Shown piece after piece: positions 3,339-28,939 of a DNA stretch of 50,799 nucleotides; positions within the stretch are counted from its first letter, which is position 1, and each line of letters starts with the position of its first letter. The DNA lies in NCBI GenBank assembly GCA_030147525.1, contig JASBVF010000018.1:1-50799 (forward strand), in the 5' to 3' direction. The notes beneath the pieces were generated by a model that saw nothing but the letters and a program-made list of their open reading frames with translations, had not been told where the DNA came from and did not search any database. The translations under genes and the position numbers were made by a program. The stretch is from Bacteroidota bacterium (GTDB lineage: Bacteria > Bacteroidota > Bacteroidia > Chitinophagales > Saprospiraceae).

Positions 3339-3478
3339 CGACAGGGGAATGCCCTCATGACGTTTTGGTTTGAATGGATCAATGACAAGTATTGCCGGTA
3401 AACACAAGAATAAGGGCCAGGTATGACTAATTCAATCAGGAATAAAGATGAACCTGTTTAGTAATTTCAGGAATAAAT

Positions 3479-3574
3479 TGAACCGTTGTTATCTTCGTCC
3501 AGGAAGAAGGATAATTCTTGTAATTCTCAACTCTTAATTACTGCAAAATCTGTAAGGTTTTTTTAGGAAAGTAC
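3479..3574 (+). other. conserved 96-bp leader of 21-bp array A
   Basis: This 96-bp segment aligns without gaps to 22880-22975 (about 84 of 96 identical by hand count). Best conserved are the left end (TGAACCG, then ATCTTCGT, then CAGGAAGAAGGA) and the right end (CTCTTAATTAC, GCAAAATCTGTAAGG, a run of seven T, AGGAA, GTAC). It has no start codon in frame with the array. In both copies the tandem array starts within one base of the terminal GTAC. Confidence 0.85.
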
Positions 3575-3575
3575 G

Positions 3576-3876
3576 GATAATGTCAGTCAGGCTGATGATA
3601 ATGTCAGTCAGGCTGATGATAATGTTTATCAGGCTGATGATAATGTTTATCAGGCTGATGATAATGTTTGTCAGGCTGATGATAATGTTTGTCAGATCGA
3701 TGATAATGTTTGTCAGGCTGATGATAATGTTTATCAGGCTGATGATAATATTTGTCAGGCTGATGATAATGTTTGTCAGGCCGATGATAATGTTTGTCAG
3801 GCTGATGATAATGTTTGTCAGATCGATGATAATGTTTGTCAGGCCGATGATAATGTTTGTCAGGCCGATGATAATG
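3576..3876 (+). repeat. 21-bp tandem array A (14 full units plus 7 bp)
   Basis: Fourteen uninterrupted 21-bp units start at 3576, 3597, 3618 and so on to 3849, with a 7-bp remnant GATAATG at 3870. The unit begins GATAATGTTTGT and ends CAGGCTGAT. Variation is confined to a few columns: GTCAGT, GTTTAT, GTTTGT or ATTTGT in the middle, and GGCTGAT, GGCCGAT or GATCGAT at the end. The period is a multiple of three and stop-free, so a 115-codon repeat frame (heptapeptide M-F-V-R-L-M-I) spans it. I do not read this as a protein, because the matched array B is open on the other strand relative to its leader. Confidence 0.95.
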
Positions 3877-22712: not shown

Positions 22713-22841
22713 GAGGGCCGTCCCCTTTTCATCCTGCAAGGAACTGTTCCGTCATGAGGGCCGTCCCCTTTTCATCCCGTAGGGAACTGTTCCGTCATGA
22801 GGGCCGTCCCCTTTTCATCCCGTAGGGAACTGTTCCGTCAT
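22713..22841. repeat. three tandem 43-bp units
   Basis: Units start at 22713, 22756 and 22799. Each begins GAGGGCCGTCCCCTTTTCAT and ends GGAACTGTTCCGTCAT; units two and three are identical to each other, and unit one differs at three positions. Each unit holds the palindromes CCCGTAGGG (a degenerate version in unit one) and GGAACTGTTCC. Immediately upstream, GAAATTTTTAAAATTTC is itself palindromic. The array ends 38 bp before the leader of array B. Confidence 0.9.
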
Positions 22842-22879
22842 GATAGACTGGAAATCAAAGCCACGCAAACGTAAAACAA

Positions 22880-22975
22880 TGAACCGCTGTCATCTTCGTT
22901 CAGGAAGAAGGAAATTACCTGTAATCCTTATCTCTTAATTACCGCAAAATCTGTAAGGTTTTTTTAGGAAGGTAC
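22880..22975 (+). other. conserved 96-bp leader of 21-bp array B
   Basis: The second copy of the leader described at 3479-3574, of identical length and without gaps. Differences are scattered, mostly transitions, and are densest in the middle third. The terminal run of seven T followed by AGGAAGGTAC is nearly unchanged. Array B begins at the next base. Confidence 0.85.
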
Positions 22976-23253
22976 ACTATTCACTCCGAGACCGATACTA
23001 TTCACTCCGAGACCAATACTATTCACTCCGAGACCAATACTATTCACTCCGAGACCGATACTATTCACTCCGAGACCGATACTATTCACTCCGAGACCGA
23101 TACTATTCACTCCAAGATCGATACTATTCACTCCAAGATCGATACTATTCACTCCGAGATCAAAACTATTCACTCCAAGACCAATACTATTCACTCCGAG
23201 ACCGATACTATTCACTCCAAGATCAAAACTATTCACGCCAAGACCGATACTAT
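22976..23253 (+). repeat. 21-bp tandem array B (13 full units plus 5 bp)
   Basis: Thirteen contiguous units start at 22976, 22997 and so on to 23228, with a 5-bp remnant ACTAT at 23249. The unit begins ACTATTCACTCC and ends GAGACCGAT. Variants are confined to the second half: GAGACCGAT, GAGACCAAT, AAGATCGAT, GAGATCAAA, AAGACCAAT, AAGATCAAA and AAGACCGAT. The unit shares its period and the AGATCGAT-like 3' end with array A, but its first 12-13 nt are different. A minus-strand repeat frame (I-G-L-G-V-N-S heptapeptides, 22964-23293) runs towards the leader and is not taken as a gene. Confidence 0.95.
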
Positions 23254-23295
23254 CTGATTGAATATCCGTTAGAACAAAGCAGAGGAGACCCATTA

Positions 23296-23465
23296 CCGCT
23301 GCGCTAAACGCTTGCTCAAACTGTGGGATGAATTAAAAGACAAAAGCTGATGTTAGTTTTTGAAATGATAGACTCAGTTTGAGCAAGAGTTGAGCGCAGC
23401 GGCTCTTGCGGTGATTATAGCAGACTTGGCGCAAGAGCCGCTGCGCTCAACGCTTGCTCAAACTG
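23296..23465. repeat. long inverted repeat with an extra direct copy of one arm
   Basis: Arms 23375-23410 (starting CAGTTTGAGCAAGAGTTGAG) and 23430-23465 (ending AACGCTTGCTCAAACTG) are 36 bp each with one mismatch and a 19-bp loop, which would give a very stable hairpin. A third, direct copy of the right arm lies at 23296-23326 (CCGCTGCGCTAAACGCTTGC). The element ends 46 bp beyond the stop codon of the TPR gene and could block read-through between it and array B. Confidence 0.85.
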
Positions 23466-25963: not shown

Positions 25964-26881
25964 TTATTTTTGTTTCAAACGGAACTCAGCTGAGGTTCCC
26001 GGATAATAGAATTCCCGCTTGGTTTCAAATCCTTCTTTCTGAAAACTCAGATCATATTTTTCCTGAACCTGATCTGCTTCCATGGTAAAAGAGAAGCGCC
26101 CGAGGCTATCAGTTGAAACTGAAAATTCATTTTGAATCAACACGGTTACATTCGCAATGCCGACCGATCCATCCATTCTTTTCACGATGCCTTTTATTTG
26201 CCGCTTTTCATCATCTGGCTTGATCTCAAAATAGATGGGTTTACCCTCCCATTTGAAATTCAATACTGGCGCCGCAGCCTTGTAGCCTTCTGCCTTGACC
26301 GCTATGGGCAATAATTCACCTTTAAATTTTGCAGGTATTTCGTTGAATACCGTTCTTCCTTTTTCACCAATCTTAGCCCACCTTCTATCTCCGTCGAGAT
26401 CAACCAACAACTCACCTTCGTTTTCCAGCAAATAGTCTTGCTGTCCCTTTGGGCCATGAACATAAATTGTGAGCTGACCTGAGTCAGTTCCGGACGTTGC
26501 CAGGATATCGGGCAGGTTGAGCGCCATCGTCAATATACCAATGACCACCACTGCTCCGGCCAGGTATTTCCACCAATTCCTACGTAATCCTGTTGTTGTT
26601 AAATCTCCTGAATCGTTTTGCCTTGCGGATGGTTGGAAAGGAATCTTATCAATCAGTTCTAATAAACTCTGGTTGATTCTTGCCGATGAAATGTTGATTT
26701 CGTCGAAAGACATGGTGCCGGCTCGCTGCGCTTTCTCCAGCTTATCAAAACGGGCCGATTGTAAAATCAAGGCTTCGACTGCCTGCTGATCGCCTGCTTT
26801 TTCTGCCAGGGACATCAGTTCTTCCGTAACCAAACGGACTTCATTTTGGGCCAGCAGTTTTCTTAACTTTTGCTTTGGCAT
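25964..26881 (-). CDS. EAD11-type adaptor fused to a transmembrane helix and an extracytoplasmic beta-sandwich
   Basis: A 305-residue protein with a clear three-part design. Residues 4-80 match the effector-associated domain 11 pattern as I remember it (LRKLLAQNEV, LILQSARFDKLEK, INQSLLELID). EADs are small helical adaptors described in prokaryotic conflict and signalling systems, where matching EADs bring effectors together. A transmembrane helix follows at about 105-122 (WWKYLAGAVVVIGILTMALN). The extracytoplasmic part ends in a carboxypeptidase-regulatory-like domain (KGIVKRMDGSVGIANVTVLI, 230-300). The EAD should therefore face the cytoplasm. The ATG at 26881 is chosen over an in-frame TTG at 26887. 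Base composition is visibly richer in A+T than in the ilv genes. The function is inferred only from domains. Confidence 0.8.
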   Translation of the reverse strand: MPKQKLRKLLAQNEVRLVTEELMSLAEKAGDQQAVEALILQSARFDKLEKAQRAGTMSFDEINISSARINQSLLELIDKIPFQPSARQNDSGDLTTTGLRRNWWKYLAGAVVVIGILTMALNLPDILATSGTDSGQLTIYVHGPKGQQDYLLENEGELLVDLDGDRRWAKIGEKGRTVFNEIPAKFKGELLPIAVKAEGYKAAAPVLNFKWEGKPIYFEIKPDDEKRQIKGIVKRMDGSVGIANVTVLIQNEFSVSTDSLGRFSFTMEADQVQEKYDLSFQKEGFETKREFYYPGTSAEFRLKQK

Positions 26882-27118
26882 GCACAATTAGATTGGGTGA
26901 TTAATGATTACCAGAAAAGGATGATATCCAATAGTCAGGAGATGACTGCGCTGTGTTTGCTTTCCTGCAGCGCTCTGTAGAATGGCAAAATAGGAAGAAT
27001 GACTCCAAAAGCTGAAAAAATCGGTAACTTTCTTGCAAAAGCCAGGATGATCTTGCAGAAGCCGTCTCAGCTAATTTGCATGCTATATTTTAAATATTTA
27101 ACCCCGCTCGCCCCAAGT

Positions 27119-27310: not shown

Positions 27311-27348
27311 GAAAGTGGGCCAGCGGTTTAATCCTAAATACCAAAATG

Positions 27349-27453
27349 GCTTCAAAATGATTTTGGGGGCACTTCGATATTCCGAAGTGGCTTCGAAATG
27401 AATTTGGAAGCAGTTCGATATTCTGAAGTGGCTTCGGAAGGGTTTTGGAGGCC
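27349..27453. repeat. two and a half tandem 41-bp units
   Basis: Units at 27349-27389 and 27390-27430 and a partial one at 27431-27453. Each begins GCTTC and carries an ACTTCGATATTCCGAAGTG-type palindrome at its end. They are diverged (about 80% alike by eye). Confidence 0.75.
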
Positions 27454-27546: not shown

Positions 27547-27663
27547 GCACTTCAAACAAATCAAACCCCTCAAACCCCTCAAACAAATCAAACCCCTCAA
27601 ACCCCTCAAACCCCTCAAACAAATCAAACCCTTCAAACCCCTCAAACCCCTCAAACAAATCCT
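27547..27663. repeat. TCAAACCCC/TCAAACAAA simple-sequence tract
   Basis: About thirteen nonamer units of TCAAACCCC with interspersed TCAAACAAA run right up to the stop codon of ndh (27662-27664). The tract is the complement of the one at 2587-2650. The proline/asparagine/serine frames across it are artefacts. Confidence 0.85.
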
Positions 27664-28939
27664 ACCCCTTCAACCTCGGCCGGATAATCAACCGCAGCGA
27701 CTGGTCGTAGGTGAAATAATTCCAGACCCAGTTGAGGAAAACAAAAATCTTGTTTTTAAAACCGATCAGTTGCATCAGATGAACAAACAACCAGATGTAC
27801 CAGGCAAAAGCGCCGTGTGTTTGCCACCAGGATAAATCCACAACGGCCTTGTTGCGGCCAATGGTGGCCATGGCGCCCAAATCCTTGTACGAAAAAGGAT
27901 GAAGCGGTTGTTTTTTGAGTATTGCAATAAAATTATCGGCCAGGTTATCAGCCTGTTGAATGGCGACCTGTGCGACCTGCGGGTGTCCATCAGGGTAGGA
28001 CTCTTCCGTCATGAGGGCGATGTCGCCGATGGCGAAAATTTCATCAAAACCCTCCACCTGGTTAAAACGGTTCACCTTGATGCGGTTACCCCTGGTATAC
28101 ACTTCATCCGGCAGGCCGGGGATGCTGCTACCTTTGACGCCGGCAGCCCAGATAACTTTTCTGGCTTCCAGTTTGCTGCCGTCTTTCATGAGCAGAAACT
28201 CGCCGTCGTAGTCAATCACCCTGGCTCCCAGCTGCACCTTCACGCCGAGGCCGGTCAGGTATTCCAGCGCTGCATCGGAGGCTTTCTGCGACATGCCCTG
28301 CAAAAGGCAGGCGCCGCCCTGAATCAGATGGATGTCGATTTCGTCGCAGTTCAGCTCAGGGTAGTCTTTTGGTAAAACGTGTTTTTTCATTTCCGCCAAA
28401 GCTCCTGCCACCTCCACGCCGGTCGGCCCTCCGCCGACGATGACGATGTCGAGGAAAGGCTGTCGCTCCTCGTATTCGGCGGCTGAGAGAGCGTTTTCAT
28501 AATCTTTGAACAACTCGTTGCGCAGGTACAGTGCCTCTGACACCGATTTCATCGGAATGACATTGTCAGCGATTTTTTCATTGCCGAAATAATTGGTGTC
28601 CGCTCCGGTGGCCAGCACGAGGTGATCGAAGTTGAGTACGCCCAGCGTGGTATTCAGCTGTTTTTTGACCGTGTTGATGCTGATGACTTCCGTGACCCGG
28701 ATGTATACATTTTTGTTTTTCTGAAACATCTTCCGCAGCGGATAAACGATGGAGCTGGGCTCAAGGCCGGCCGTGGCCACCTGGTAGAGCAGCGGCTGAA
28801 ACTGATGGTAGTTGTTTTTATCCACCAAAATGATGAGATAGCCTGACTTTCGTAATCTTCTCGCCAGTCTCAGGCCGGCAAAACCGCCTCCGATAATGAC
28901 GACCCGTTGCTGGTTAGTTTCAGGAATGTTGATGCGCAT
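27662..28939 (-). CDS. ndh: type II NADH:quinone oxidoreductase
   Basis: A 425-residue membrane-associated flavoprotein that passes electrons from NADH to quinone without pumping protons. The FAD loop is VVIIGGGFAGLRLARRL (13-29), followed by NYHQFQPLLYQVATAGLEPS. The NAD loop is IVIVGGGPTGVEVAGALAEM (about 165-184), and the second FAD-binding motif is IFAIGDIALM. The C-terminal aromatic/hydrophobic segment (FAWYIWLFVHLMQLIGFKNK) is typical of the membrane anchor in Bacteroidota homologues. The start is the ATG at 28939; an ORF extension upstream to 29014 runs into the terminator region and is not used. Confidence 0.93.
   Translation of the reverse strand: MRINIPETNQQRVVIIGGGFAGLRLARRLRKSGYLIILVDKNNYHQFQPLLYQVATAGLEPSSIVYPLRKMFQKNKNVYIRVTEVISINTVKKQLNTTLGVLNFDHLVLATGADTNYFGNEKIADNVIPMKSVSEALYLRNELFKDYENALSAAEYEERQPFLDIVIVGGGPTGVEVAGALAEMKKHVLPKDYPELNCDEIDIHLIQGGACLLQGMSQKASDAALEYLTGLGVKVQLGARVIDYDGEFLLMKDGSKLEARKVIWAAGVKGSSIPGLPDEVYTRGNRIKVNRFNQVEGFDEIFAIGDIALMTEESYPDGHPQVAQVAIQQADNLADNFIAILKKQPLHPFSYKDLGAMATIGRNKAVVDLSWWQTHGAFAWYIWLFVHLMQLIGFKNKIFVFLNWVWNYFTYDQSLRLIIRPRLKG

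Follow-up and report, generated by a model that had tools for sequence, protein, structure and literature searches.

The window analysed here, a stretch of 50,799 nucleotides that forms contig C42 of a 7.08-Mb, 59-contig genome (G000), holds two copies of a 96-bp sequence, the leader, each followed by a tandem array of 21-bp units whose sequence differs between the two loci. The question raised by these loci is whether the leader seeds or maintains arrays of changing content, as the first-pass annotation had proposed, or whether leader and array are separate entities that have come to lie side by side.

Results

Two leader-array loci in the window

The two leader copies aligned without gaps over 96 bp at 88% identity (0.875, equal to the 84 of 96 positions counted in the first-pass annotation), and both were followed by uninterrupted arrays, starting immediately at the 22880 copy and one base past the leader at the 3479 copy (Table 1). 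The first 12-13 bases of the units (GATAATGTTTGTCAGGCTGAT and ACTATTCACTCCGAGACCGAT) were unrelated, with a faint likeness by eye at the unit end. The initial observation was thereby confirmed; its interpretation was partly supported. The genes adjoining the two arrays are ordinary-looking: DinB_2, YceI, a TPR protein and one with no Pfam match.

Table 1. Features of the two leader-array loci in the window
Feature	Position	Strand	Remarks
Leader copy, 96 bp	22880..22975	+	left edge shorter than in other copies
Core TCTGTAAGGTTTTTTTAGGAAGGTAC, most conserved part of the leader	22950..22975	+	ends at the fixed edge, toward the array
21-bp array, unit ACTATTCACTCCGAGACCGAT	22976..23253	+	TRF: period 21, 13.2 copies, 92% match, 0% indels
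Tail, also present at L004, which has units of this family elsewhere in the genome	23254..23297	+	
Upstream body of the leader element	3349..3478	+	absent from the 22880 copy; ~80% identity to L002
Second leader copy, 96 bp	3479..3574	+	
21-bp array, unit GATAATGTTTGTCAGGCTGAT	3576..3876	+	TRF: period 21, 14.3 copies, 92% match, 0% indels

Other features were seen around these loci. Three copies of a 43-bp unit (GAGGGCCGTCCCC...) at 22713-22843 end about 36 bp short of the leader, and at L003 a ~139-bp tandem array likewise abuts the leader from the upstream side. Imperfect inverted repeats (CAAGAGCCGCTGCGCTCAACGCTTGCTCAAACTG) lie directly beyond the array tail at 23295-23465, and 9-/18-bp repeats of the TCAAACCCC/TTTGAGGGG type occur at 27552-27669 of the window as well as in L041 (7829-7886) and L052 (5048-5137). 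A protein encoded at 25964-26887 contains Effector-associated domain 11 (EAD11, E 1.2e-18), which is associated with conflict systems.

The leader is a dispersed element with one fixed edge

Nine leader copies in the genome were returned consistently, whether the query was the 96-bp leader, a longer copy or a sequence model built from nine aligned copies. Two further places were added, L015 with a leader body and an altered core and L016 with a body fragment and an inverted core, giving 11 places with leader or core, a count that leaves out three weak leader matches (E 0.3-0.6; C57, C22 and C6). Beyond these places, no copy of the core was found in G000 at up to three mismatches. The leader stood as a defined repeated element, as first suggested, with its edge lying, at most copies, beside fixed-period arrays of differing units.

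The element extends over up to ~260 bp and includes the 26-bp core. Its right edge (AGGAAGGTAC) is constant, at GTAC in the best copies, and its left side is variable: relative to the core, the left edge lies at about -72 in L001, -98 in L003, -52 in L007 and between -198 and -234 in L002, L004, L005 and L006, and no left terminus could be defined from the copies compared. By eye, AGGAA-type motifs recur in the leader at a spacing of 31-32 bp, and in one RI_132 copy they appear again upstream of its core. A second core-like sequence is present ~220 bp upstream in L004, and a similar one was noted by eye upstream in L015. The inverted core is located 3' of the array in L008 and L015 and stands isolated and array-free in L016. 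At the flanks of L001, inspected by eye, no target-site duplication was evident, and no leader was noticed to be flanked on its two sides by array units, the arrangement expected from random insertion into an array.

Some copies are closely related to each other. The leaders of L002 and L003 are identical over 96 bp and 99.2% identical over 125 bp, and L001 and L004 have leader, array and tail in common, indicating that whole composites have been copied too. An origin of the leader from phages or plasmids was rejected, as a 217-bp leader region gave no phage or plasmid match and the core had no exact match in IMG/VR. The leader is apparently a non-coding, dispersed, MITE-like element.

Arrays of six unrelated unit families adjoin the leader

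At eight of the 11 places (L001-L007 and L015) an array of at least four 21-bp units was found within about 30 bp of the leader, and the remaining three had 2.3 units (L008), a degenerate array (L019) or no array (L016). The leader-associated units fall into six unrelated families, represented by L001 and L004, by L005 and L006, by L007 and L015, and by L002, L003 and L008 singly; ACTATTC units occur at two places only in the genome, and so do AAATACCC units. Under a rough model based on 17 arrays in 122,287 sampled noncoding bases, from contigs picked to include leader sites, the chance of such adjacency at eight or more of 11 places is ~3.7e-14, and at nine or more ~1.4e-16.

The prediction that a leader search would return many copies followed by 21-bp arrays of differing units was largely borne out. 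The observation named in the first-pass annotation as a refutation, a leader match with no 21-bp array, was made at one of the 11 places in this genome (L016), and also at L025 in RI_132 and at L211 in G368, the latter having a core with two mismatches. Two negative statements of the first-pass annotation stood as well: the arrays are not CRISPR, as their units are contiguous and have no spacers, and they do not represent simple microsatellite slippage.

Leader and array also occur apart

The proposed seeding or maintenance of arrays by the leader was not supported, since arrays exist that have no leader, some of them with the very same units, and since identical leaders adjoin unrelated, internally diverged arrays with no consistent polarity of growth. 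The arrays behind the identical L002 and L003 leaders have internal unit identities of 85% (4 units) and 83% (9 units); as these units have diverged by 15-17%, the arrays seem to predate the leader copies, although unit divergence would not date arrays made by an error-prone process. The GATAATG unit is direct to the leader in L005, inverted in L006 and leaderless at C32:44132-44387. From 5 bp beyond the leader edge to its end, the L003 array matches a sequence on C21 at 93.7% over 221 bp; with the ends of C56 and C15, 89 bp could be compared, at 97.8% identity. A different sequence stands there in place of the leader.

Arrays lacking a leader are common, and seven further ones were present in the sample. 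Among 14 leaderless arrays from three genomes, no leader-like core was present in the flanks; degenerate cores were likewise rejected (0/14 with leader-like scores), with L082 and L092 at the 2% background level and L041 at 5%. Units did not become consistently more or less diverged away from the leader (mean rho 0.07, 8 arrays), L001 being the one array of the eight with such a trend (rho 0.58, p 0.04).

A duplication was observed between L220 (C15:65900-67252) and L219 (the end of C56). The 247-bp duplicate (98.8%) comprises the start of a 217-aa gene together with the array start at another site, where the gene is truncated. Both C15 and C56 terminate within the array.

The core was found in few genomes of the family

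With up to three mismatches allowed, the core was found in six of 398 genomes of the family. Four of these belong to the 14 genomes of the genus, namely G000, UBA6168 (G219, also G150), RI_132 (G263, also G151) and G368 (two mismatches), and the two outside the genus, G144 and G236, each have three mismatches. The G144 match appeared to be due to chance, as did two more three-mismatch matches returned by a one-base-shorter core pattern in 150 genomes; L021 and the three-mismatch matches L027, L028 and L029 were also judged chance-looking by eye, and no 21-bp array follows them. In UBA6168 the core is followed by a degenerate 21-bp array. RI_132 has two cores, one followed by a degenerate 21-bp array and the other array-free and abutting a truncated DDE_Tnp_4 transposase (E 3.6e-9), and G368 has a core with no array. 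None of the 13 remaining genomes of the genus contained any of the six unit families sought there, five leader-associated and one leaderless.

The period of 21 bp is sharp

Periodicity was scored by a lag test at 21, 42 and 63, in which a region passes at 0.45. Within 1,241,686 bases of G000, 16 regions passed at period 21 and none at 19, 20, 22 or 23, other periods with passing regions being 14 (7), 28 (6) and 18 (4); L097:1399 scored 0.43, below the threshold. UBA6168 gave five period-21 regions in 275,613 bases, windows below 0.45 that looked coding by eye (L135:10831, L160:9004 and L161) being left out as arrays, and RI_132 gave two in 240,000 bases, again with none at 19, 20, 22 or 23 in either genome. 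G061, of the same genus and with no core, had a baseline of at least six regions at every period, with an excess at 14, 21 and 28, in a sample with runs of N in 6 of 32 stretches. Its period-21 matches were rejected as arrays, being mostly 7-bp microsatellites; one match, L117:7366-7579, is not a 7-bp microsatellite. Eight other genomes of the family (312,602 bases, small samples each) yielded three period-21 matches, two of them N-runs and one a microsatellite. Thus, a sharp period-21 peak was seen in all three exact-core genomes sampled, and the nine sampled genomes with no exact core had mainly microsatellites. This co-occurrence of core and arrays at genome level (3/3 vs 0/9 accepted) hints at a common cause.

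Within the eight leader-associated arrays (L001-L007 and L015), 60 distinct substitution alleles were counted and the main TRF rows had 0% indels; at the start of the L007 array a second, overlapping row had 25%. The decayed array L082 had 0% indels, L091 0-1%, and L056 and L041 3-5%. By eye, strand reversal part way within the array was seen in L056, L163 and L170; L163 (17475-17895, UBA6168) and L170 (157-569, RI_132) become their own reverse complement midway. Arrays of 41-bp units form a second period class (L064 15383-15609, L084 780-995 and window 27347-27449).

Coding, RNA structure and gene context

None of 24 arrays examined is located inside a larger predicted gene. The flanking genes, counted after leaving out ORFs confined to the array plus 150 bp, are convergent in seven cases, divergent in four, co-directional in 12 and undetermined in one, and a role as promoter or terminator was rejected on account of these mixed orientations. 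Predicted ORFs overlap four arrays (L092, L099, L137 and L179), and at L138 and L170 the overlap with an adjacent ORF is ~20 bp.

The arrays might encode heptapeptide repeats read toward the leader and ending in a peptide such as YLPKKTLQILR, as 21 is divisible by 3, frames are open through L002, L003 and L004 into the core, and treating units as independent gives a synonymous excess in some frames (p 4.1e-5 for L004, 4.5e-5 for L003 and 0.0014 for L001). However, tandem copies are not independent, and column permutation gave no codon-position pattern in 14 of 14 arrays (p 0.08 to 1.0), so that the synonymous count was rejected as a coding signal. Since, in addition, L001, L005, L006 and L007 have no open frame leading into the core, the 23-base core in the UBA6168 and RI_132 copies is identical even at third positions, and arrays are found in both orientations, coding appears very unlikely.

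That a transcribed array acts as structured RNA, or a DNA strand through long hairpins, is very unlikely as well, although two of four unit families fold strongly. The GATAATG strand had z-scores of -7.95 in L005 and -7.43 in L006 (other strands -2.11 and -0.22), the L003 array folded on both strands (-6.43 and -6.95), and some other arrays switch strand part way. Against this, the ACTATTC family (-0.23 and -1.18) and the AAATACCC family (L007 -1.12 and -0.05; L015 +3.26 and +1.35) folded no better than shuffles, and the folding strands of L005 and L006 are oppositely oriented to the leader. The leader itself has no fold (alignment -2.23 kcal/mol, 1/13 pairs compensated), and in Rfam none of 12 loci had a match at gathering score, the two matches with E below 0.1, both from L001 (E 0.064 and 0.071), falling far short of it. 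Palindromes were not enriched overall among 17 unit families (Fisher p 0.54), with L160 (p 0.01) and L099 (p 0.03) as outliers. The coding, palindrome and orientation tests leave the 21-bp step unexplained.

Discussion

Relation to known repeat elements

Among known elements, BrickBuilt of Porphyromonas gingivalis (PMC4596501) comes closest. Both BrickBuilt and the present elements are intergenic, occur in Bacteroidota and consist of a leader, a spacer-less array of short units and a tail, with many incomplete copies; both have predicted long stem-loops, and the host range is narrow in either case, BrickBuilt being reported there from P. gingivalis and P. gulae. A leader followed by spacer-less tandem repeats of at least four units was present at eight of our 11 places. 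IS5-type ends are reported for BrickBuilt in that text; here, a DDE_Tnp_4 remnant lies beside one core. In contrast to the single unit consensus across BrickBuilt loci, with 23-nt units and 0-6% indels, six unrelated families of 21-bp units with 0% TRF indels in the leader-associated main rows follow one leader here, and same-unit arrays also exist away from the leader. As to paired terminal inverted repeats, an inverted core was seen after the array in L008 and L015 and isolated in L016, and the left end is variable. As the single consensus and the paired ends are established for BrickBuilt alone, we think that the present elements are a variant of BrickBuilt rather than a member.

With BIME/REP mosaics and the IS that target them (PMC1525189; PMC2817692), likenesses are the intergenic mosaic modules and the mobile elements beside repeats; the present units differ in not being palindromic overall and in their strict tandem step of 21 bp. 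A second minisatellite-bearing MITE of P. gingivalis, MITEPgRS/464, has 41-nt tandem units as described in PMC4596501, and arrays of 41-43 bp occur in the present genome too. Differences lie in the unit length and in flanks that are themselves repetitive. A literature search, covering mostly papers outside subscription, found no description of the present elements.

Two modules or one

We hold, with about even confidence, that the loci are mosaic intergenic repeats built from two separately mobile modules, one being a MITE-like leader with its 26-bp core and one fixed edge, the other an apparently older 21-bp minisatellite cassette. The modules are together at eight of 11 places (nine with the 2.3-unit array) and yet are also found apart; the leader copies are dispersed, with a fixed right and variable left edges; identical leaders adjoin unrelated arrays, and the GATAATG family occurs in both orientations as well as leaderless. 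None of the 24 arrays examined lies inside a larger predicted gene, and the flanking genes are of mixed orientation. Neither a gene product nor a regulatory role would be required. The leader may be copied by a transposase in trans, possibly of IS5 type, an idea suggested by the RI_132 core that abuts a truncated DDE_Tnp_4. It may favour the edges of existing arrays, in favour of which we count that REP repeats are known IS targets (PMC1525189), or recombination at short homologies may join both modules. The arrays would arise and persist by slippage or unequal recombination, with some constraint that keeps them stepping by 21 bp, the length of two B-DNA turns. Several points count against two modules: no left terminus, paired terminal repeat, target-site duplication or autonomous partner could be established, the core and the arrays coincide at genome level, the strong folding of two unit families is not predicted, and a single element bounded by TIRs accounts better for the inverted core that follows the array in L008 and L015.

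Such a single element, possible though not probable, would be a composite MITE of the BrickBuilt type with a leader, an internal 21-bp array and the inverted core as right terminal repeat, the right end having been lost in most copies and the internal array turned over by recombination. The body and inverted core of L016, the composite common to L001 and L004 and the often incomplete leader-repeat-tail plan of BrickBuilt (PMC4596501) argue for it. Against it, only three of the 11 places have an inverted core, the body is situated outside what would be the left repeat, the flanks of 14 leaderless arrays contain no leader-like core, and identical leaders carry different units, which is not so in BrickBuilt. 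Alternatively, the leader could be an active signal at which adjacent DNA of whatever sequence is duplicated in 21-bp steps. The adjacency at eight to nine of 11 places, the six unrelated families, the strict step and the joint presence of core and arrays in the sampled genomes would all follow, but leaderless arrays, some with the same units, the lack of a consistent polarity, the inverted L006 unit and the array-free cores of L016, L025 and L211 make this unlikely. A bolder version is doubtful to the same degree: a trans-acting factor recognising the core would duplicate or maintain intergenic DNA of any sequence, in steps of exactly 21 bp or two helical turns, in part of one genus, with tens of arrays per genome, unrelated units and strand flips within arrays, the leader marking one class of sites. 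It is kept in view because of the association of core and arrays at genome level, the two folding families and the clean step.

If the reading as two modules is right, a single mobile leader and numerous unrelated minisatellite cassettes would be shuffled as modules in a genus of the Saprospiraceae, and the idea behind BrickBuilt, with its one fixed repeat, would be widened to a repeat that can be exchanged. The sharp 21-bp period, kept despite strong sequence decay, requires either a constraint on helical phase or copying in steps of fixed length.
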